From Dietzia sp. NCCP-2495 (lineage in GTDB: Bacteria; Actinomycetota; Actinomycetes; Mycobacteriales; Mycobacteriaceae): a stretch of DNA of 64,000 nt. Shown here in pieces: positions 1-59,629 of the stretch; positions within the stretch are counted from its first letter, which is position 1; the number at the start of each line of letters is the position of its first letter. The position numbers and the translations under genes are program-made. The stretch lies in the NCBI RefSeq assembly GCF_026011735.1, contig NZ_BRVN01000010.1, forward strand, positions 1 to 64,000, in the 5' to 3' direction. The notes below the pieces were generated by a model. The model saw nothing but the letters and a program-made list of their open reading frames with translations, ran no database searches and was not told the DNA's origin.

Positions 1-82
1 GGCTGAGCTCGGGTTACCGCAGCTGACCGCGGCTGGTGAGCTCCGGCAGTCGAGATGTCCCCGCGCCGCTAGCCTCGCCCTG

Positions 83-1006
83 CTAGATGTTCGAGTCCAG
101 TGCCGGGAAGCTGGAGGGCAGTCCTGCAGCGGCGTCGCCCGGGCCGCCGGCGTTCCCGACGGAGCCCGCGGCGGCGACCTCGGCCACCTTCGCTGGATCG
201 AGGCCGAGCGAGTAGCAGGTCATGGACAGCGATCCGGCCGCGTAGCCTTCGACGAGCACGTCCAGCGGCGTGGTGTCCGCGAGTCCGGCGAGGTAAAGCA
301 GCGGCAGGTAGTGGTCGGGCGTGGGGACGGCCTTGGTGAAGTCGCCGTGGCCGTCGAGGGTGAGGATCCGGCTGGGATCGTCTATGAGCAGTTCCCGGGC
401 GGAGTCGTCGAAGCGCCGGGCCCAGTCGAAGCCGGTATCCGGCTTGGACATGTCGACCGCGCGCAGGTTGTGCACCACGTTGCCGCTGCTGATGATCAGC
501 ACGCCGTGCTTGCGCAACTCGGCCAGCTTCCGGCCCAGGTCCAGGTGCTTCTCCGGCTCCTTGAACGCGTTGAGTGAGAGCTGGAGGACCGGGATCGAGG
601 CGTCCGGGAACGCGTGCACGAGAACGGACCAGGTGCCGTGGTCGATCCCCCAGCTGTCGACGTCGTGGCCGACCCAGGTGGGTTTGACCACGTCCACCAC
701 GAGGTCGGCGATCTCGGGGTCGCCCGGCGCCGGGTACTCCACGTCGAACAGGTCCTGCGGGAAGCCGTAGAAATCGTGGATCGTCCGGGGCCGGGTCATG
801 GAGGTGACGGCGGTGGCATTGGTGTACCAGTGCGCAGAGACCACGAGGATCGCGCGCGGGCGCGGGACGGCCCGCCCGAAGGCGGCCCAGGCGGCGGTGT
901 AGCGGTTGGACTCCAGGGCGTTCATCGGATTGCCGTGGCCCAGGAAGGCGGCGGGCATCATGTCGGTGGGAACGGATTCAACGGACACGGGAGCCTCCGG
1001 GGACAT
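83..1006 (-). CDS. DODA-type extradiol ring-cleavage dioxygenase (YgiD-like)
   Basis: A 307-residue member of the LigB/DODA superfamily (class III extradiol dioxygenase, 4,5-DOPA dioxygenase type). The N-terminal LGHGNPMNALESN segment, the VSAHWYT strand, the WGIDHGTWSVL segment and the GNVVHNLR segment are family hallmarks that supply the metal-binding histidines. The family cleaves catechol-type rings with O2 using Zn or Fe; the substrate here cannot be told. I chose the ATG at 1006 because the residues encoded upstream of it are low-complexity Arg/Ser and overlap the preceding gene; an ATG at 961 would also keep the whole domain. It lies 55 bases behind the amidase on the same strand, so co-transcription is likely. 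Confidence 0.85.
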   Translation of the reverse strand: MSPEAPVSVESVPTDMMPAAFLGHGNPMNALESNRYTAAWAAFGRAVPRPRAILVVSAHWYTNATAVTSMTRPRTIHDFYGFPQDLFDVEYPAPGDPEIADLVVDVVKPTWVGHDVDSWGIDHGTWSVLVHAFPDASIPVLQLSLNAFKEPEKHLDLGRKLAELRKHGVLIISSGNVVHNLRAVDMSKPDTGFDWARRFDDSARELLIDDPSRILTLDGHGDFTKAVPTPDHYLPLLYLAGLADTTPLDVLVEGYAAGSLSMTCYSLGLDPAKVAEVAAAGSVGNAGGPGDAAAGLPSSFPALDSNI

Positions 1007-1061: not shown

Positions 1062-2558
1062 CTACTCCCAGATCCGCGCGAACGGGAACGCGGCCTCGTA
1101 CTGGGCGGCCAGCTCGAGGAGGAGCCGGTCCTCACCGCGGCGGGAGGACAGGTGCATCCCGATCGGCATCCCGTCGGGCGCCTGCCCGGTGGGTAGCGAG
1201 ATCGCGGGAGAGCCGGTGACGTTCTGCAGCGGGGTGAACGTCACCCACCGGCTGACGTGCTCGAGGTGGGTCTCGAACGGCAGATCCGCGCCGAGGTACC
1301 CGACTTCCGGGGTCTCGGCAGCGACCACCGGGTTGAGGTAGACGTCCACATCGCCGAACTTCGAGTCGAACTGGCGACGGACCCGCTCGAGCCGAAGCAG
1401 GTGTAGAGGGAGCGTGTGGAGTCTCCGCTTGGCCCGGCGGGACAGGCCTACGGTGAACGGGTCGAGCAGGTCAGGGTCGAACTCCGGGTGGAACAGCTTC
1501 TTCCCTGACCCGGCGGTGCTCATCGCGAGCAGGGACCAGTAGGCGATGAAGTCGTCCCGGAAGCTCGCCGGTACCGGCGCAGTGGTGGGGATGATCTCGT
1601 GTCCCAGTTCGGCGAGACGATCGGCGGTCTGGCGCAGTGCCGCGCTGGTGGCGGCGTCCGGCGGACCGCCCGCGGGGGACTCTTCGACCAGTCCGATGCG
1701 CAGGCGACGGCCGGGCTCGGGAGGGGCGCCGGTCAGGGGCTTGAGTCCGACGGGAGGATGCGCGGACTCGAAGGCCGAGACGAAGGCGACCGTGTCCCGG
1801 ACGGATCGCGTCACGACGCCCTGCGAGATGAGGGGGATCGGCATCGAGCGCGAGAAGACCTCGTCAGGGTGACGGCCCCGGCTCGGCTTGAAGCCGACCA
1901 GGCCGGTGACGGCGGCCGGGATCCTGATCGAGCCACCGCCGTCGTTGGCGTGCGCGATCGGCAGCGCCCCGGACGCGACGAGCGCCGACGCGCCGCCGGA
2001 GGATCCGCCGCTGGTCCGGCCGGTGTTCCACGGGTTGCGGGTGATGAGGCCGCCCTGGCGTTCGGTGGCCGCGGTCCATCCGAACGGCGGCATCGCGGTG
2101 GTGCCGAGAGGGTTGAGTCCGGTGGCCCGGAGTGCGCGGACATGCGGGCTGTCGGCATCGGACGGGGTCGCGGGGACCGCGGGCGAGCCCATCGTCATGG
2201 GGGAGCCCCCGACACGCACGTTGTCCTTGAAGGCCGTCGGGAGGCCCGCCAGCGGTGCTGAGGCGAGTGCGTCGCGGTCCGTTCGGGCGCGGGCGCGGGC
2301 GCCCTCGAAGTCGGTGAACGCCAGCGCGCCGAGCGTGGGGTCGACGGCCTCGCAGCGCGCGATCGCGGCTTCGAGAACTTCGTCAGGGGAGACCTCTCGT
2401 CGGCGGATCCGCTCGACGAGCGCGGTGGCGTCGTCGTACCCCAGGGCGTCATCACGGAAGGCGTGCACGCGGCCGGGGCTGGTGGTGCCGGTGTTGTCGT
2501 CTGCGGCGTCGATCACATTCCCCACAGTAGGGACGCTGGCCGGGCGGTGGGGCTCCAC
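1062..2558 (-). CDS. Amidase, amidase-signature family
   Basis: A 498-residue amidase-signature hydrolase that would hydrolyse an amide, releasing ammonia or an amine. The Ser-cisSer-Lys triad is visible: K111 in AFKDNV, cis-Ser S186 in the GGSSGG loop and nucleophile S210 in DGGGSIRIPA; the 24-residue spacing between the two serines is the family norm. The length is normal. No signal peptide is visible, so it is probably cytoplasmic. It is the first gene of a two-gene unit with the downstream dioxygenase. Its start lies about 30 bases from an iron-box-like element shared with the divergent gene at 2689, so iron control is possible but unproven. The substrate is unknown. Confidence 0.88.
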   Translation of the reverse strand: MEPHRPASVPTVGNVIDAADDNTGTTSPGRVHAFRDDALGYDDATALVERIRRREVSPDEVLEAAIARCEAVDPTLGALAFTDFEGARARARTDRDALASAPLAGLPTAFKDNVRVGGSPMTMGSPAVPATPSDADSPHVRALRATGLNPLGTTAMPPFGWTAATERQGGLITRNPWNTGRTSGGSSGGASALVASGALPIAHANDGGGSIRIPAAVTGLVGFKPSRGRHPDEVFSRSMPIPLISQGVVTRSVRDTVAFVSAFESAHPPVGLKPLTGAPPEPGRRLRIGLVEESPAGGPPDAATSAALRQTADRLAELGHEIIPTTAPVPASFRDDFIAYWSLLAMSTAGSGKKLFHPEFDPDLLDPFTVGLSRRAKRRLHTLPLHLLRLERVRRQFDSKFGDVDVYLNPVVAAETPEVGYLGADLPFETHLEHVSRWVTFTPLQNVTGSPAISLPTGQAPDGMPIGMHLSSRRGEDRLLLELAAQYEAAFPFARIWE

Positions 2559-2589
2559 CCTTGACAGGGCCGAGGACGTCCGGCATTTT

Positions 2590-2621
2590 AGGGATACCTA
2601 AGTAAGGCTAGGGTCGCCTAA
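2590..2621. promoter_or_regulatory. Candidate IdeR/DtxR iron box in a divergent promoter
   Basis: Positions 2603-2621 match 14 of 19 bases of the IdeR/DtxR consensus (half-sites TTAGG and CCTAA nine bases apart). Further half-sites lie just left of it (TTAGG at 2588-2592, CCTAA at 2597-2601), so several overlapping sites could bind two dimers. It sits between the divergent amidase (start 2558) and the gene at 2689. Repression by Fe-loaded IdeR would be expected. This is a consensus match by eye. Confidence 0.55.
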
Positions 2622-2688
2622 AGCTGAAGCCGGTGCGGACGTAGTGACGCGCTGTCGAGTACGGCGAGGGGGCCACTCCGGAGGATTC

Positions 2689-3366
2689 ATGTCAGAGCAT
2701 CCCGTCACGTCGACCCCCGTCACCACGGGCGCACGCAGGCTCCTCGACGGCGCGGGCATCGCGACAATCGCCGTTCGCGGCAGCAAGAACCGCTCGGACG
2801 TGCTCGTCTCCGCGGGGCACCGGTGGATCGGCGACGGCCGGATCGTGGTGACCGGGACGCCGGCTCCGTGGTCCGGGCTGATGGTCGCGCCGGGAGAGTC
2901 CGTCGAGGTGGTGGTGATGATCGACGAGTTCGCCCCGATCGTCGAAGCCAAGGTCCACGTGGCCAGCCTCTACGGGTTCGGCGTCGCCCGCGAGGCGCGT
3001 CAGGGCGAGGGGTGGATCGTGGAGATCGAGATCCAGCTCGGAGATGTCGACATCAAGCGGCTGGGCCACACCGGCACGGTCGACGCCCGACTGCTCGACG
3101 CGGTGCCCGTGGATCCGCTGGCCGGCGACACCGCAGGGCTCGCCGACGAGATCCGGGCACGCTTCGGCGGGGAACTGTCGACGGTCGCGGGGTCCGGGGA
3201 TCCGGCCACCCCGCCGTTCGTGCTGGGCGTGGATGCCGACGGCCTGCACCTCATCACGGCACTCGGGGTGGACGCCGATGTGGTTCACGTGCCGTTCGAG
3301 GACCGGGCCGGGACCGTGGGGGACGTGTTCCGGGAGATGGGCCGGTACATCGCCCGGGTGAGCTGA
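2689..3366 (+). CDS. Hypothetical protein, possible DUF2470-like C-terminus
   Basis: A 225-residue soluble protein. The start is fixed by GGAGG at 2680-2684, four bases before ATG 2689; a GTG at 2644 in the same frame has no ribosome site. The last 45 or so residues (GVDADGLHLITA...VHVPFEDRAGTVGDVFREMGRYI) resemble the C-terminal half of DUF2470, a domain found in pyridoxamine-oxidase-fold proteins including HugZ/HutZ-type haem-degrading proteins, but the usual His/NADH first half is not obvious. Together with the iron box upstream, a role in iron or haem handling is a reasonable guess, not a conclusion. A strong hairpin follows the stop. Confidence 0.6.
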   Translation: MSEHPVTSTPVTTGARRLLDGAGIATIAVRGSKNRSDVLVSAGHRWIGDGRIVVTGTPAPWSGLMVAPGESVEVVVMIDEFAPIVEAKVHVASLYGFGVAREARQGEGWIVEIEIQLGDVDIKRLGHTGTVDARLLDAVPVDPLAGDTAGLADEIRARFGGELSTVAGSGDPATPPFVLGVDADGLHLITALGVDADVVHVPFEDRAGTVGDVFREMGRYIARVS

Positions 3367-41250: not shown

Positions 41251-41417
41251 CCTACTACCGGCTCGAGCGCATCGCCGAGCGCACCGGGTGCGACCTACGC
41301 GGTTTCGCTGATCTGCAGGATCTGCTGGTCGCGATCAGACTCATGACCACTACCGGCGGTCGGCAGAGGCACCCGGGTGCCACAGGGTCCGCAGGTCCCG
41401 CAGGGCGGCAGGGATAG
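41247..41417 (+). pseudogene. 3' fragment of a PucR-family regulator
   Basis: The plus-strand frame reads [32 protein letters not shown] and ends at TAG 41415-41417. This is the C-terminal helix-turn-helix typical of PucR regulators (xRYRLxRIxExTGxDL...LxLxxALRL). Everything upstream is missing and the truncated acyl-CoA synthetase gene begins within a few bases on the other strand. Confidence 0.65.
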
Positions 41418-41427
41418 TGTGGACCGC

Positions 41428-42276
41428 ATGACGTCCGGACGGGTCGTGTTGGCGGCCACCCCCATCGGGAACCCGGCAGACGCCTCGGGCCGCCTGCGTC
41501 AGCTGCTCGAGACCGCCGACGTGGTGGCGGCGGAGGACACCCGGCGCCTGCGCTCACTGGCCGCGGCGCTGGAGGTCAGCATCGGCGGCCGGGTGATGAG
41601 CTTCTACGAGCACAACGAGGCCGGGCGGGTGCCGCAGCTGCTCGATCGCGTTCGGTCGGGTGACGTGGTGGCGGTCGTGACCGACGCCGGTATGCCCGCG
41701 GTCTCGGACCCGGGGTATTCGCTGGTGACGGCCTGTATCGAGGAGGGGCTGCCGGTGACGTGCCTGCCGGGGCCGTCGGCCGTGACCACCGCGCTCGTCC
41801 TCAGCGGACTGCCCGTGGACCGCTTCTGCTTCGACGGATTCCCGCCGCGCCGTGCCGGGCGTCGTCGCACGTGGCTGGCCCGGCTGGTCGCCGAGGAGCG
41901 CACCTGCGTGTTCTTCGAGTCGCCGCACCGCGTGGCCGACACCCTGGCCGAGGCCGCCGAGGTGCTCGGGCCGGATCGCCGCGCCGCGGTGTGCCGGGAG
42001 CTCACCAAGACCTACGAGGAGGTCCTGCGCGGGACCCTCGCGGAGCTGGCCGAGCTCACTGCCGGCGGGGTGCTGGGTGAGATCGTCGTGGTGCTCGAGG
42101 GCGCCTCCGCGGCGGATACCGAGGCCTCGCTCGAGGACCTGGTCGAGATCGTCGAAGAGCGCGTCGCTGCCGGTGAGCGACTCAAGGACGCGTGCGGGGT
42201 GGTGGCGGAGGGTGCGTCGCTGACCAAGCGCGAGCTGTACCAGGCGGTGCTCGACGCCCGCGCCGAGAACGATTAG
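41428..42276 (+). CDS. rsmI: 16S rRNA 2'-O-ribose C1402 methyltransferase
   Basis: A 282-residue RsmI: LAATPIGNPADAS, AAEDTRRLRSL, VTDAGMPAVSDPGYSLV, CLPGPSAVTTALVLSGLP, ESPHRVADTL and RELTKTYEEVLRG are hallmarks of this SAM-dependent tetrapyrrole-methylase-fold enzyme. ATG 41428; GTG 41419 is possible. A second, diverged copy of its last 26 or so codons lies at 43915-43998, beyond the nuclease-like gene. Confidence 0.92.
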   Translation: MTSGRVVLAATPIGNPADASGRLRQLLETADVVAAEDTRRLRSLAAALEVSIGGRVMSFYEHNEAGRVPQLLDRVRSGDVVAVVTDAGMPAVSDPGYSLVTACIEEGLPVTCLPGPSAVTTALVLSGLPVDRFCFDGFPPRRAGRRRTWLARLVAEERTCVFFESPHRVADTLAEAAEVLGPDRRAAVCRELTKTYEEVLRGTLAELAELTAGGVLGEIVVVLEGASAADTEASLEDLVEIVEERVAAGERLKDACGVVAEGASLTKRELYQAVLDARAEND

Positions 42277-42304
42277 ACGCCACCTTCGCAGCTACATCTG
42301 CTGG

Positions 42305-42359
42305 TTTGGCAGTACTCAGCGAGGTTTTCTCGGCGTGTCGTCTCGCTGGTGACTGCCAA
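42305..42359. repeat. Palindromic repeat family 1, copy A
   Basis: Outer arms TTGGCAGT (42306-42313) and ACTGCCAA (42352-42359), inner arms CAGCGAG (42317-42323) and CTCGCTG (42342-42348), and a loop containing CGGCGTGTC. Copies B and C share the inner arms and loop. Confidence 0.8.
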
Positions 42360-42384
42360 TCGGGAGGTGGTGGCTGGTGGCGTC

Positions 42385-42414
42385 GCAGCCGCAGCCGCAG
42401 CCGCAGCCGCAGCC
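42385..42414. repeat. Five tandem GCAGCC hexamers
   Basis: A perfect five-unit run of GCAGCC between copies A and B of the palindromic repeat. Confidence 0.85.
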
Positions 42415-42438
42415 TCGGCCGCCGACTTCTCTGATGTG

Positions 42439-42487
42439 GGAGTAATCAGCGAGACTTTGTCGGCGTGTCCTCTCGCTGATGATGTCC
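42439..42487. repeat. Palindromic repeat family 1, copy B
   Basis: Inner arms extended to ATCAGCGAGA (42445-42454) and TCTCGCTGAT (42471-42480), with the same loop core. The outer arm pairing seen in A and C is lost on the left side (TGTGGG facing GTCCAAA). Confidence 0.8.
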
Positions 42488-42540
42488 AAACCGTGGGGGT
42501 GGGGCGGAGCGTGGTCAGTCAGCGTGGTCAGGTGCCGGGG

Positions 42541-43476
42541 TCAGATATCGGGGCAGCCCTGTCGCCGCAATTTCTCCGCGATCCGCCGCAACAGCGTGTC
42601 ACTATCTCGCAGCATGCCCGCTGTGATTCTCAGGTCCAGCCACCCCTCGTCGAACAGTCGCGCAGTCATGGCGGAATCCCAGTCTCGTTGTTCACGGTCG
42701 AGGTGGTGCTCGCCGTCATAGAGCAGGGCCACCCGGTACTTGCGGTACGCCAGGTCGGCCTTGACGATGTGGCGTCCGGCGGAGTCTGCGATATTCACCT
42801 GCAGGTCAGGTTGAGGCAGCGACGAATCGGCGATGATCAGCCTGACCCGGGTCTCGCGTGGTGAATCAGCACGGTGATCGCTGCGTCCGAGCACGTACAG
42901 CGCGCGCCTGCGACCGTGGAGCCCGGATGTGGAGTGCGCGATGCGCTCGACATCGGTCGCAGGAGTCCCGGTGACGTTGCAGAGGGCATCCACGGCGATG
43001 GTGGCCGCGAGCGGATCCCGCGTCCACCGCGCCAGGTCCAGTGCGGTCCGTTCGGGCGAGGTGCACCGCATCGCGTGCCTCTCGCTGATATCTGCCGAGG
43101 TCAAGGGCTGCCGGAGGCGTCGAATCCGGATTCCATTCGGAGCACGAACGGAGTGCGGGAGGCACAGGTCGACACTGCGGAAAGCGTGTACCGGCGCGAC
43201 CTGATACTCCCCGTGGAGGAGCGCCGCTGCTGGTCCCGCGAGTATCGCACCACGTGGTGCCCAGAGCCATGCCGACCGGACACGCGTGTAGACGTCACAG
43301 TCGAAGCCTTCGAATTGGTAGATGCCGGGCAGGACTCGCCTGAACAGCGTGCGCAGCTCGTGCTCGGTGACGATACCGGCTGCCTGCGCGGCCGCGCCGA
43401 CGAACGGACGGCCCCGGAACACGGCGTCGGCGAACGCGTCGGAATCTGCGGCGGCACGAATTCTGGTCGGAGACAC
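42541..43476 (-). CDS. AbiEi-like/DUF559-like nuclease-fold protein, paralogue 1
   Basis: A 311-residue protein. N-terminal part (RPFVGAAAQAAGIVTEHELRTLFRRVLPGIYQ, then LAGPAAALLHG and SPERTALDLAR) resembles AbiEi-type winged-helix/antitoxin proteins; the C-terminal 110 residues (ADSPRETRVRL...VKADLAYRKYRVALLYDGEHHLDREQRDWDSAMTARLFDEGW) resemble the Vsr/DUF559 endonuclease fold with E, D and E/H acid positions. GTG 43476 has GGAGG upstream. There is no adjacent partner toxin gene. It is flanked by three palindromic repeats and has a full-length paralogue at 57776. Biochemical role unknown. Confidence 0.75.
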   Translation of the reverse strand: MSPTRIRAAADSDAFADAVFRGRPFVGAAAQAAGIVTEHELRTLFRRVLPGIYQFEGFDCDVYTRVRSAWLWAPRGAILAGPAAALLHGEYQVAPVHAFRSVDLCLPHSVRAPNGIRIRRLRQPLTSADISERHAMRCTSPERTALDLARWTRDPLAATIAVDALCNVTGTPATDVERIAHSTSGLHGRRRALYVLGRSDHRADSPRETRVRLIIADSSLPQPDLQVNIADSAGRHIVKADLAYRKYRVALLYDGEHHLDREQRDWDSAMTARLFDEGWLDLRITAGMLRDSDTLLRRIAEKLRRQGCPDI

Positions 43477-43914
43477 GCCTCCACTGTCGGGCGTCGCGGA
43501 GCCGGAATTCCTCTCAGAGAGGCCACCTGTGGATCAGTGCGACGACCATTCACAGCCACGCGGTCTCCTGCGCTTGTGCCGTCTCTCGAGTGCCCGCCGA
43601 CCTGCATCGATGCCGCCAGGTCCTGTCTCAGATGAAATCTCGCGGCCTCAGGGGCCGGTCGCAGCGTTACGACGGCCCAACCAGGCTCAAACCTCAATTT
43701 GGAAGTAGTCAGCGAGACTTTGACGGCGTGTCATCTCGCTGGTGATGTCCAAATTTGAGGGTGGTGGGTGTTGAGGTTGGTGGGCGACGTACCGGGGGAA
43801 TGCAGGCCACGCGGGCGGTAGATGTGGTGCCGGGAGAGTCGACGTGCCGGCCAACACCGCCACGCGGGCTCCGCCCAGCCCCGCTACCAGGGACTCGCCC
43901 AGCCCCGCTGCCAC
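43477..43914. other. Gene-free stretch upstream of nuclease paralogue 1
   Basis: 438 bases with no supported gene. It holds the leader of the minus-strand nuclease gene, palindromic repeat copy C, and then GC-rich sequence with a doubled motif (cgcccagccccgct at 43873-43886 and 43898-43911) just before the rsmI 3' fragment. Confidence 0.55.
43693..43759. repeat. Palindromic repeat family 1, copy C
   Basis: Outer arms CTCAATTTGGA (43693-43703) and TCCAAATTTGAG (43748-43759, one bulge), inner arms CAGCGAGA (43710-43717) and TCTCGCTG (43734-43741), loop core CGGCGTGTC. The outer arms differ from copy A yet still pair. Confidence 0.82.
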
Positions 43915-43998
43915 GGCGCCGCGGTGGCCGAGTGGGCGAGCGTGACCAAGCGGGACCTCTACCAGGCGGTACTCGACTCGCGCGCCGCCGACGACTGA
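43915..43998 (+). pseudogene. Diverged second copy of the rsmI 3' end
   Basis: The plus-strand frame reads AVAEWASVTKRDLYQAVLDSRAADD followed by TGA 43996-43998, aligned along its whole length with the real RsmI terminus VVAEGASLTKRELYQAVLDARAEND (42204-42276). DNA identity is roughly three quarters, so it is not a recent duplication. No RsmI sequence precedes it. Confidence 0.78.
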
Positions 43999-44014: not shown

Positions 44015-45277
44015 TCACCACGGCGCCGGGCCGCCACCCCAGGTGAACGCGGCCTTGTGCAGGCACTCCTCCCACTCGGCCTGCGGGTCGGAGTCAATGG
44101 TGATGCCGCCGCCGACGCCGAACTCACAACGGCCGTCCGGGCTGATCTCGATCGTGCGGATGGCCACCGACAGGTCCAGCTCGTCCGGGCCCGAGATCCC
44201 GATGGCGCCGCAGTGCAGCCCGCGAGCCCTGGGCTCCCAGCCGGCGATGAGTTCCCGGGCTCGCAGCTTGGGAGTGCCGGTGACGGATGCCGGAGGGAAC
44301 GTGGTCTCCACGAGCTCCCGATGCGTGACGTCGGTCTGCGACGCGACGGTCGAGACGAGGTGCCACACCCCGGGGGCCTCGTGGACCGCGAGCAAGTCGG
44401 GAACGGTCACCGAACCCGTGTCGGCGGTCTGTCCGAGATCGTGCCGGACGAGGTCGACGATCATGATGTTCTCCGCCACGTCCTTGTCCGACGCACGCAG
44501 GAGCGCGGGGTCGGCGCTGCGGGGGAGCGTTCCCTTGATGGGGGCTGACAACACGTCCCGGCCCGTGCGGGTCAGGTACGTCTCCGGCGAGAGCGAGACG
44601 ACCGCCCCCCACGAACCCTGGAGGAACGCCGCGCGCTGCGCACCGGTCCGGCGCCACAGCGCGAGGAACAGGTCCACCGGCTCGCCCAGCACCCGCCCGT
44701 CCAGCCGCGTCGACAGACAGGCCTGATAGATCTCGCCGGCCCGGATCGCCTCGAGGCAGTCCTCCACCGCCGCCTGATGCGCCTCCCGGTCCGGTGCGGA
44801 CCAGAGGAGGGAGGCGGCGTTGTCGTCGTCGAGGCCCGGGGTCTGAGAGGTCAGGGCGAGCGCGGCGGGGGAGGGCACCGCGCCACGGGTGGACCACCGG
44901 CCGTCGTGGCTCAGGACGAGCAGGCCCTCGGCGCGCCCGGACACTGCCTCGGGCAGCAGCGAGGTGGCGCCGCGCGGGACGTCCGGGAAGGAACGGAAAC
45001 CGAGGACGTAGCGGGAGGACCCGTCGCCGGACGGGCGGTCGAAGGCGGATCCGGGATCGACGGTCTGAAGGGCCACGGACGGGGCGATCACGGCGGCCGA
45101 CCCCAACCAGTTCCCGAGCAGCGCGGCCGGCGGCGCCAGACCCTCGTGCGTGGCGCGGCGGGCGAGGGCGTCCAGGACGCGGAGCGGATCCGGCGGCAGG
45201 TCCGCCCATGTGTGCACGGAGACAACGGTGGCAGAACCGGGGGCATGTGGTCCAGTCGGGGGCCGGCGCCCCTGCAC
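44015..45277 (-). CDS. pabB: Aminodeoxychorismate synthase component I
   Basis: A protein of about 420 residues of the chorismate-binding family. Core motifs: RAGEIYQACLSTRLDG, SLSPETYL, APIKGTLPRS, KDVAENIMIVDLVRHDLGQ, GVWHLVSTV, FPPASVTGTPKLRARELI and EFGVGGGITIDSDPQAEWEECLHKA. It makes 4-amino-4-deoxychorismate for folate. The first 20 residues are not conserved; GTG 45217 is an alternative start. M. tuberculosis also has pabB just beyond rsmI. Confidence 0.88.
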   Translation of the reverse strand: MQGRRPPTGPHAPGSATVVSVHTWADLPPDPLRVLDALARRATHEGLAPPAALLGNWLGSAAVIAPSVALQTVDPGSAFDRPSGDGSSRYVLGFRSFPDVPRGATSLLPEAVSGRAEGLLVLSHDGRWSTRGAVPSPAALALTSQTPGLDDDNAASLLWSAPDREAHQAAVEDCLEAIRAGEIYQACLSTRLDGRVLGEPVDLFLALWRRTGAQRAAFLQGSWGAVVSLSPETYLTRTGRDVLSAPIKGTLPRSADPALLRASDKDVAENIMIVDLVRHDLGQTADTGSVTVPDLLAVHEAPGVWHLVSTVASQTDVTHRELVETTFPPASVTGTPKLRARELIAGWEPRARGLHCGAIGISGPDELDLSVAIRTIEISPDGRCEFGVGGGITIDSDPQAEWEECLHKAAFTWGGGPAPW

Positions 45278-57375: not shown

Positions 57376-57464
57376 TTCGCCCCGCCCGCGTCCCGCCTGG
57401 CATGCCACTCACGGCCTGTCGGGTGCCTGCCTTGAGTTTGGTCGCCACCACGGCGCACCTTGAC

Positions 57465-57506
57465 GCCGCCACTGCGGAGAATCAAGCGATTTCCCGCAGT
57501 GGTGGC
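57465..57506. repeat. Palindromic repeat family 2, left copy
   Basis: A 13-bp stem (57465-57477 with 57494-57506, one G-T pair) around a loop AGAATCAAGCGATTTC, followed by CTCTAGATTTTC. Stem, loop and tail align with the right copy at 58734-58787 in the same orientation. Confidence 0.8.
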
Positions 57507-57547
57507 CTCTAGATTTTCTGCTGCCTGCTGCCTGCTGCCTGCTGCCT

Positions 57548-57775: not shown

Positions 57776-58732
57776 ATGACGTCCGGCACGCACGATGAAC
57801 TGGTGAGTGAAATAAGAGCGGACGAGTCCTCGACAAGCGGAGCGCATCGCGGGAGGGGGACACCATTTCTCGGCAGTGCCGCCGTGGCATCGGGTCGGCT
57901 GACATCGCATCAGCTACGCACTCGCTTCCGACGCCTTTTTCCGGACGTCTATATCGAACTGACCTGCATCGTCACGCCGGAGATCCTCGTTCGAGCCGCG
58001 GCTCTGTGGGCGCCGACGGGCTCTGTGCTCGCTGGTGCGGGAGCAGCACTACTTCATCGGGAACGCTGGTATGCAAAGAAAGCTGTCCAAGCGGAGGTCG
58101 ACTTCTGCTGCAGAGGAACCCCGAGGTCGACACCCGGCGTCAGACTCCGCCGCCATGACAGAGCGTTCCCGCCGGGCCACCTGGTGCGGAGGGAGGGGAT
58201 TCGACTGACATCAGTGGCCAGGACCGCCGTTGACGTGGCGCGGTGGGAACCCAACGACGACATCGCCATCGCCAAGGTCGACGCTGTCTGCAATAGGGGA
58301 CAGATCAAGGTACGCGAACTGCCTGAGGTGCTGGATCAGATGGGCGGCCTACACGGTGTGAGTCGGGTAGGGGCCTTGCTCCGTTGGTGTGATGTGCGCG
58401 CGGACTCGCCGCCGGAGACGCGCCTGCGACTAGCTCTGATCCGCGCCGGTCTGCCGTCGCCGACTCCGCAATTGATCATTCGCAACGAGTTCGGGGCGAG
58501 AGTAACGAAAGCCGATCTCGGGTACGAGCAGCAGAAGGTGGCGATCTTCTACGACAGCGAACTCCACCGGGAGAAGTCGAACTGGGAATTCGACAACTGG
58601 GTCAATGCGCAGCTGGCGGAACTCGGATGGGAACGGTTTCGCGTCACCGCGCAGATGCTGCGGAACCCGGGCACGTTGTTGCGGCAGATCAGTTCCGCGC
58701 TCGTGCGCCGGGACGCGCTGGGCGGAGCATGA
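57776..58732 (+). CDS. AbiEi-like/DUF559-like nuclease-fold protein, paralogue 2
   Basis: A 318-residue paralogue of the protein at 42541-43476. Shared features in the same order: TPFLGSAAVASGRLTSHQLRTRFRRLFPDVYI, LAGAGAALLHRERWY, SVARTAVDVARWE, VDAVCN, GLHGVSRVGALL, ADSPPETRLRLALIRAGLP, TKADLGYEQQKVAIFYDSELH and LGWERFRVTAQMLRNPGTLLRQIS. In the nuclease-like core the second acidic/His group is DSELH instead of DGEHH. Start ATG 57776 chosen by matching the paralogue; GTG 57803 is possible. GC is visibly lower than in the neighbouring genes. Flanked by palindromic repeats of family 2. Confidence 0.74.
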   Translation: MTSGTHDELVSEIRADESSTSGAHRGRGTPFLGSAAVASGRLTSHQLRTRFRRLFPDVYIELTCIVTPEILVRAAALWAPTGSVLAGAGAALLHRERWYAKKAVQAEVDFCCRGTPRSTPGVRLRRHDRAFPPGHLVRREGIRLTSVARTAVDVARWEPNDDIAIAKVDAVCNRGQIKVRELPEVLDQMGGLHGVSRVGALLRWCDVRADSPPETRLRLALIRAGLPSPTPQLIIRNEFGARVTKADLGYEQQKVAIFYDSELHREKSNWEFDNWVNAQLAELGWERFRVTAQMLRNPGTLLRQISSALVRRDALGGA

Positions 58733-58733
58733 T

Positions 58734-58787
58734 CTAGACGCCGTTCCTGCGGAGAAACGGGCGATTTTCCGCAGTAGAGGCGTCTAG
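58734..58787. repeat. Palindromic repeat family 2, right copy
   Basis: Outer stem CTAGACGCC (58734-58742) with GGCGTCTAG (58779-58787), inner stem CTGCGGA (58747-58753) with TCCGCAG (58768-58774), loop GAAACGGGCGATTT. It begins one base after the stop codon of the nuclease gene. Confidence 0.82.
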
Positions 58788-58882
58788 TTTCGCAGTAGCG
58801 GCGGCATGAGTTGCGGCGTCTAGTTTCGCAGTAGCGGCGGCATGAGTTGCGGCGTCTAGTTTCGCAGTAGCGGCGGCATGAT
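58779..58882. repeat. Three 36-base tandem repeats
   Basis: Units start at 58779, 58815 and 58851; each begins GGCGTCTAGTTTCGCAGTAG and continues CGGCGGCATGAGTTGC. The third stops after CATGA. The unit's start is the right arm of the palindromic repeat. Confidence 0.9.
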
Positions 58883-58888
58883 CAGCAT

Positions 58889-59629
58889 TCAGCTGCACGC
58901 TGCGTGAACTGCGTCCACCACGGCCCGGGGAGACGTGAGGTCGGGCAGGACCACGTGGGCGCCTGCCTCGCGCAGGTCCTCGGCACTCACCCGGCCGGTC
59001 GCCACGCCGACGAAGCGCACCCCGGCGTCCAGGGCACCGCGGACATCATGGACATGGTCGCCAATCACCACCGTCCGCCCCGGCAGCACGTCGAGATCGC
59101 GGCCCCGGGTGGACGCGACAGCCTCTCGTACCAGGTCGGCCCGATCGAGATGGTCGTCACCGAACGCACCCAACCCGGGATCAGGCAGACCGTCGAATCC
59201 ACAGAGACGCAGCTTGAGCAGGGCGGTGCGCTTCATGTTGCCGGTGACGATCCCCTGGTGGACCAGCGGGTCCCCGGACAGCGCTCGGACCGCCTCACGG
59301 GCGCCGGGGAGCGGACCCCCGCCGGCATCGAGGAGGTCGTGGCCGAATCTCTCGCAACGCTCGGCCACGGCGTCCATGACGGTGATGAGCTCGGGGTGAA
59401 CGGTGGCGTTGTCGTCGTCAGGAACCATCCCGTTGGACCCGAGCAGTGCGGTGAGGATCGCGCGGTCGGTCCGTCCGGCGAACGGCACGTCCAATACCGG
59501 TTCGCGGCCGAGGCGTTGCTCGAGGACCGGCGCGATCATCCGCGTACCGAAGCCGGCGGGGTCGAGGAGTGTGAGGTCGAGGTCCCACAGCACCAACAGG
59601 GGCGCGGGCATCGACGCAGGGCCGGTCAT
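58889..59629 (-). CDS. HAD-superfamily phosphatase
   Basis: A 246-residue HAD hydrolase: motif I LVLWDLDLTLLD, a helical cap, motif II IVTGNMK, the Lys in LLKLRL, and motif III/IV VVIGDHVHDVRGALDAG. In motif IV the usual DxxxD reads DHVHD. A phosphoglycolate-phosphatase-like role is possible. ATG 59629 overlaps the TetR stop (ATGA), so the two are coupled. Confidence 0.85.
   Translation of the reverse strand: MTGPASMPAPLLVLWDLDLTLLDPAGFGTRMIAPVLEQRLGREPVLDVPFAGRTDRAILTALLGSNGMVPDDDNATVHPELITVMDAVAERCERFGHDLLDAGGGPLPGAREAVRALSGDPLVHQGIVTGNMKRTALLKLRLCGFDGLPDPGLGAFGDDHLDRADLVREAVASTRGRDLDVLPGRTVVIGDHVHDVRGALDAGVRFVGVATGRVSAEDLREAGAHVVLPDLTSPRAVVDAVHAACS

Follow-up and report, generated by a model that had tools for sequence, protein, structure and literature searches.

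The window is a 64,000-nucleotide stretch of the 3.69-Mb genome of Dietzia sp. NCCP-2495 (G000). It contains a nuclease-like gene flanked by rsmI and by a gene which, following the sequence-only reading of this DNA, we take to be pabB-like (Table 1). That reading placed an AbiEi/DUF559-like gene between copies A/B and copy C of one palindromic repeat, and both gene and repeats are there: identity to copy B is 89% for C and 77% for A, and all three carry the loop GACACGCC between CAGCG and CGCTG when read on the strand of the nuclease gene (minus). A strict palindrome finder overlooked real copies. With the plus strand folded as RNA, a single shuffle in 200 equaled A, and likewise for C (z −3.4 and −3.9, respectively), and 29 shuffles equaled B (z −1.1); on the minus strand, 0 of 200 shuffles matched C (z −5.9) and 4 matched B (z −2.5). 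GTAG is present inside the stem of copy C. A short GCAGCC repeat lies between A and B at 42384-42413.

The window protein matches the Pfam models AbiEi_1 (E 0.038) and DUF559 (E 0.097), both under the curated cut-offs; a confident structural model predicts an AbiEi-like front and an EDxHD/Vsr-like nuclease back, and both halves of the earlier assignment are backed by predicted structure. E208, D241, and D267 are invariant and H258 is at least 90% conserved among 30 family members, as judged from sequence. PF18741 (REase_MTES_1575) was matched by 16 of the 30 members and PF04480 (DUF559) by 10, at E ≤ 0.01. A search of NCBIfam gave zero matches, and one of Rfam gave a tRNA and nothing else.

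The second rsmI end noted in the earlier reading is genuine. Positions 43916-43994 and 42194-42272 are 76% identical over 79 nt, in the same frame through the second copy's own stop, and the stretch continues colinearly into pabB in relatives without the unit; this colinearity and a match of 65 nt at E 1e-12 rule out chance similarity. The rsmI gene itself is 82 to 92% identical in DNA to those of the eight relatives compared. Compared over its final 80 nt and stop codon, the second end is closest to G015 (0.80), and the sister genome G003 scores lower (0.72). In the pabB tree, G000, G003, G001, G017, G020, G004, and G009 form one starred group of 7, with mostly weak inner branching; the tree gives no clear sign of import, and import of pabB along with the second end is unsupported. 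The second end may be a product of local repair or an import. Direct duplications outside the palindromes gave matches in 3 of 121 stretches tested (97 + 24; the two sets overlap in some Dietzia genes). Two of the three matches are palindromes belonging to their loci, farther from a partial gene, and the window therefore shows the only gene-end duplication among the 121. Considered as a possible target-site duplication, this is also the one long case, among duplications long enough to be delimited. The duplicated rsmI end is not a hallmark of the unit.

Table 1. Features of the window locus and of its paralogue (window positions, or residues of the window protein)
Feature	Position	Strand	Remark
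rsmI	41377-42276	plus	host gene left of the unit
Palindrome copy A	42304-42360	minus	between the rsmI stop and copy B
Palindrome copy B	42434-42490	minus	~50 nt beyond the nuclease gene's stop codon
Nuclease-like gene	42541-43476	minus	311 aa
AbiEi-like N-terminal part	residues ~7-200		predicted
EDxHD/Vsr-like nuclease domain	residues ~205-308		predicted
Palindrome copy C	43697-43753	minus	~220 nt upstream of the nuclease gene start
Second, diverged rsmI 3′ end	43916-43998	plus	own stop codon
pabB-like gene (presumed)	44015-45277	minus	right of the unit
Palindrome left of paralogue	57459-57512		
Nuclease-gene paralogue	57776-58732	plus	40% identical to the window gene (query residues 7-306)
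Palindrome right of paralogue	58734-58787		just past the paralogue's stop codon; 79% identical to the left one

Comparative analysis

The rsmI site was compared in all 23 genomes of the genus. In 15 of them rsmI and pabB are adjacent, the nuclease gene is absent, and the palindrome pattern has no match between the two genes; these are the empty alleles for which the earlier reading had proposed to look. G001 has a palindrome with the same loop and another outer stem, again with the nuclease gene absent. The gene is present in three genomes, namely G000 (the window), G021 (69% identical to the window gene), and G006 (74% identical over the 81 residues on the contig). The remaining four are unscored, since a contig ends or a neighbor differs. 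Tandem repeats of ~60 nt end the G021 contig beyond its unit (L029 1-190) and make the pabB side there unreadable. The closest homologue outside the site, 66% identical, lies on another contig in G001, where a palindrome of G001's own type was found on the downstream side only.

Copies of the palindromes without a gene are found elsewhere in the same genomes, as sequence searches indicate for more than one palindrome type. The G006 palindrome, used as a query, gave 14 matches at 13 places in G006, 12 of them away from the gene, and 9 in G021, 7 of them away from the gene; 2 further stray copies are in G003 and 1 is in G000. The gene-adjacent places number 1 in G006, where the contig ends, and 2 in G021, and close homologues of the window gene number one in each of these genomes among the matches listed. 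No family gene was found beside the stray copies in the fetched stretches, some of which are shortened by contig ends. Most stray copies consist of TTGCGCACCATCAGCG (often twice), the GACACGCC loop, and CGCTGATGGTGCGCAA. Two stray palindromes with the window-type loop lie in G003 (L097 and L101), a genome in which the best family match reaches only 42% identity with the window gene; they are perhaps relics.

Covariation of stem positions is shown by an alignment of 25 of 26 Dietzia copies, picked by script on loop and inner-stem motifs. This choice favors the inner stem and left out copies lacking the motifs, such as L106 and L120. In the 17-pair stem, 85.6% of cells are paired, and changes on both sides number 24, against 12.2 ± 3.0 in shuffles (0 of 500 reach 24; relatedness of the copies remains in this test) and at most 9 in slid versions of the stem. 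The seven pairs with both-side changes all lie outside the motif-selected inner stem. By eye, a GTAG-type tag is absent from the palindrome ends in the consensus of the 25 copies.

One stray place can be followed across the genus. The intergenic region that holds the palindrome in G006 and G021 is 438 and 344 nt long there, 34, 16, and 16 nt long in G000, G003, and G015, respectively, and 89 to 129 nt long, with that palindrome absent, in G017, G009, G004, G005, and G010. At this position G005, G010, and G004 (L256, L257, and L259) have an unrelated palindrome built on ATCCGCTACC where G006 and G021 have the GACACGCC palindrome. The place seems to take up palindromes repeatedly.

A paralogue at 57776 with its own repeat family, also claimed earlier, is confirmed together with its palindrome pair. 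The right palindrome has zero further matches at E ≤ 0.001 in the 23 genomes. It is followed at 58788-58890 by tandem half-palindromes, with units containing GGCGTCTAGTTTCGCAGTAGCGGC. A second palindrome type, that of a gene in G003, gave 17 matches in G003 (12 places) and 7 in G000 (6 places). One place in each of these genomes has a family gene beside it, and the others are, by coordinates, not adjacent to any listed family gene. The window genome also holds a third family gene (G000:C6:15444-16298), with a match to this second type (TTGCAAGACA) ~350 nt upstream.

Bracketing was scored as a repeat shared by the upstream 450 nt and the downstream 300 nt of a gene, at a bar of E ≤ 1e-6 set after the data were seen. 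Within the genus, 12 of 23 full-length members share such a repeat, compared with 0 of 65 control long open reading frames (14 of 23 versus 4 of 65 at 1e-3); 5 of the 30 loci had too little flank and 2 partial members were dropped. Among named or order-level loci the repeat is shared by 43 of 103, compared with 0 of 151 neighboring open reading frames (69 of 103 versus 8 of 151 at 1e-3). This set derives from 110 best-scoring loci (80 of 570 confirmed, plus 30), no random sample and including some orthologues, from which 7 with too little flank were dropped; gene starts were extrapolated from the profile, and the 103 include 11 Dietzia genes, most of which the genus set contains as well. Outside Dietzia, 37 of 92 loci share a repeat at E ≤ 1e-6 and 63 at 1e-3, which leaves 55 below the first bar and 29 that miss even the second. 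The shared repeat is more palindromic than letter shuffles in 29 of the 43 loci (at most 3 of 60 shuffles of single letters, not dinucleotides, reach it) and not above shuffles in 14. When 44 loci were matched against the downstream flanks of all 103, 31 found their best match in their own flank; for 13, the flank of another locus matches equally well or better. Gene-specific palindromes thus bracket many family members in Actinobacteria. The arrangement is no one-off, as the sequence-only reading had argued, and its question of whether repeats always flank these genes has the answer that they do for many and not for every member. A family match is present in 124 of 150 genomes of the order, with at least 15 matches in the richest. 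Four loci with very similar family genes (L050, L060, L063, and L064) are flanked by tandem TTGGCGGAC arrays with a period of ~21 nt, plus inverted copies, and these arrays differ between genomes.

Five mycobacterial loci at one orthologous place have a 60-nt palindrome, the downstream copy of which overlaps the stop codon of the gene. The paired copies are 0.92 to 0.97 identical within a genome and 0.77 to 0.90 identical to their counterparts in other genomes; the paired palindromes thus evolve together at this site. The genes themselves are 0.74 to 0.86 identical between genomes. Stray copies of the 60-nt type without a family gene within ~1.5 kb are present in L236, L242, L244, L245, L246, and L249.

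For one mycobacterial place, 60 genomes were searched and 30 loci were fetched and classified; 27 remained after 3 with one flank only were set aside. The gene is there in two, G210 (the query's own kind), where it lies between two palindromes, and G218, where a palindrome reaching score 16 is absent. Another 24 have a short intergenic region, 12 with a palindrome (score ≥ 12; two score just 12, one of them G180) and 12 without, and one has 1,056 nt with the gene absent. G180 and G065 each have a single palindrome here, and it matches either palindrome of the occupied site, the upstream as well as the downstream one. G210, G180/G065, and the palindrome-free loci therefore show one place in three states: the gene between two palindromes, a lone palindrome, and no palindrome.

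Several genomes carry another palindrome type at that place, GCGAGCAGACGC...GCGTCTGCTCGC, of ~61 to 64 nt. It has 67 matches at 40 places in G184 (stretches L319, L349-L384, and L389), 27 matches in G188, 24 in G222, 11 in G213, 2 each in G117 and G065, and zero at E ≤ 0.001 in G124 and G029. If the family makes such palindromes, this type was expected to lie on both sides of a family gene in a genome that carries it, and in G184 it does. A first scan of 70 stretches (L319-L388; 30 loci, 36 from G184, and 4 from G222) gave one partial family match, at the end of stretch L378. A longer fetch there (L389) contains a family gene of 304 residues at 2118-3029 on the minus strand (profile score 113.8), with palindromes of the type on both sides at 3049-3110 and 2040-2105 that share a repeat at E 2.3e-13. 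When the upstream copy was compared with the 61 motif hits from 34 stretches of G184, the median score was 48, against a maximum of 22 for shuffles and 14 for the other mycobacterial type. Both gene-side copies are missing from the genome-wide match list at E ≤ 0.001, so that bracketing pairs can escape a genome search. In G222, G188, and G213, no family gene was found in the stretches fetched. The exact GCGAGCAGACGC motif occurs once each in 2 of the loci L121-L230, and a looser, longer form occurs in none of them. Three G184 stretches with palindrome pairs, read by eye, showed no nuclease-like gene.

Interpretation

Since palindromes bracket a predicted nuclease gene here and in many mycobacteria, and several of these genomes have more copies elsewhere for which no adjacent gene of this kind was found, the protein likely recognizes the palindrome and promotes its spread, and sometimes that of its own gene. 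The bracketed gene in G184 slightly raised our support for this reading. In its specific form, the window protein would bind and cut its own ~57-nt palindrome, and repair would copy the palindrome, at times with the gene, to further places; we put this at slightly better than even odds (about 0.53). Binding, cutting, and movement are what we infer from the pattern. AbiEi proteins bind inverted repeats, and the target of I-Bth0305I is nearly 60 bp; by analogy with both, a dimer of the protein would bind the palindrome and then nick or cut it. With another copy as the template for its repair, the broken palindrome would come to resemble its partner. Repair could also insert the gene and one palindrome at a lone palindrome. 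Recombination between the palindromes on its two sides could remove the gene, and the single palindrome that remained would account for the arrangement in G001, G180, and G065. In its operation the system would resemble a REPtron (REP plus transposase) or a homing gene, with a different and unrelated enzyme.

Several observations count against this mechanism. The palindrome at 57776 lacks a stray match in 23 genomes, the bracketing figures include 55 of 92 loci that miss the bar, 14 of 43 repeats not above shuffles, and 13 of 44 loci for which another locus's flank does equally well or better, and G222, G188, and G213 carry the G184 type with no family gene in the stretches fetched. Homing normally destroys its target, whereas here whole palindromes remain beside the gene.

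The same features can be read in other ways. AbiEi proteins use similar repeats as operators, and for the upstream palindrome such a role could fit the AbiEi fold equally well, with no need for mobility of that copy. The protein might then be an AbiEi-type self-repressor with a nuclease domain, the downstream palindrome being a terminator and the stray copies a regulon or decoys, with nothing moving. We regard this as unlikely, though as a serious candidate: the downstream copy matches the upstream one and overlaps the stop codon in the five mycobacterial loci, stray copies in some genomes are missing from the same place in relatives, and the nuclease positions are kept conserved. Operator use and mobility do not exclude each other. 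Alternatively, the palindromes could be REP-like elements spread by another enzyme, with the nuclease gene as a passenger between two copies. This would suit the undispersed palindrome at 57776 and the three of four mycobacterial genomes rich in the G184 type that lack a family gene in the stretches fetched, but it is improbable given that 0 of 65 and 0 of 151 other open reading frames are bracketed at E ≤ 1e-6, that the repeats are mostly gene specific (31 of 44), that the G184 type does bracket a family gene, and that the pairing of palindromes within genomes is kept over divergence.

The sequence-only reading had proposed a candidate mobile unit of the kind that enters the 3′ end of a gene and brings its own replacement end. 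Mobility as such finds some support in a polymorphic site, a 66% identical gene on another contig, and many bracketed members. The mode of entry does not, and we consider it very improbable. In its favor are the genuine second rsmI end and the absence of the unit from the rsmI-pabB site of relatives; against it, a gene-end duplication occurs among the 121 stretches at the window only, the second end and pabB lie in the colinear order also found in unit-free relatives, and the pabB tree has no clear sign of import.

The preferred reading, in which the protein spreads its own palindrome, can be extended to the family as a whole. Actinobacterial AbiEi-EDxHD nucleases would then be an independently evolved counterpart of REPtrons. 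As dimers they would cut their own long palindromes, they would spread them through the genome and reinsert the gene where a lone palindrome lies, and palindrome sequences would turn over rapidly and in a gene-specific way as a result. This extension is tentative, and we would not yet favor it over its negation.

Relation to known systems

In a REPtron, the gene of an HUH-superfamily transposase goes with REPs (PMC8266576, PMC3733652). As with REPs and their RAYT/TnpA-REP enzymes, family genes, though not every member, are flanked by palindromes of their own type, the genome contains further, dispersed palindromes (those of the window type in G006 and G021, the second Dietzia type, and the G184 type, though not the 57776 type), and the palindromes differ by gene type. 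Unlike in a REPtron, the family enzyme is by its predicted fold no HUH tyrosine transposase, and the palindromes are ~57 to 76 nt long, have no GTAG tag at the consensus end, and, in Dietzia, carry a conserved GACACGCC loop. Among the open-access matches listed, no paper describes such palindrome-bracketed nuclease genes or names a maker of these palindromes.

With EDxHD homing endonucleases (I-Bth0305I) and Vsr, the family protein shares a predicted EDxHD/Vsr nuclease fold and the conserved E, D, H, and D residues. It differs from an EDxHD homing endonuclease in that the gene has no intron, the DNA-binding half is AbiEi-like, and the presumed palindrome target is whole on both sides of the gene. 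The predicted AbiEi fold and the inverted repeats upstream of the gene are shared with AbiEi antitoxins (type IV AbiE; Rv2827c), but an AbiEii toxin gene is absent beside the window gene, where the neighbors are rsmI and the pabB-like gene, a nuclease domain is fused, and the repeats also lie downstream and elsewhere. DUF559 and REase_MTES_1575 (PF04480 and PF18741) are families named by sequence, and members match both; bracketing palindromes are not described for either among the open-access matches listed. If the proposed mechanism is true, widespread proteins now named antitoxins or DUF559 gain a function, and the REP/RAYT pattern arose twice, with unrelated enzymes.
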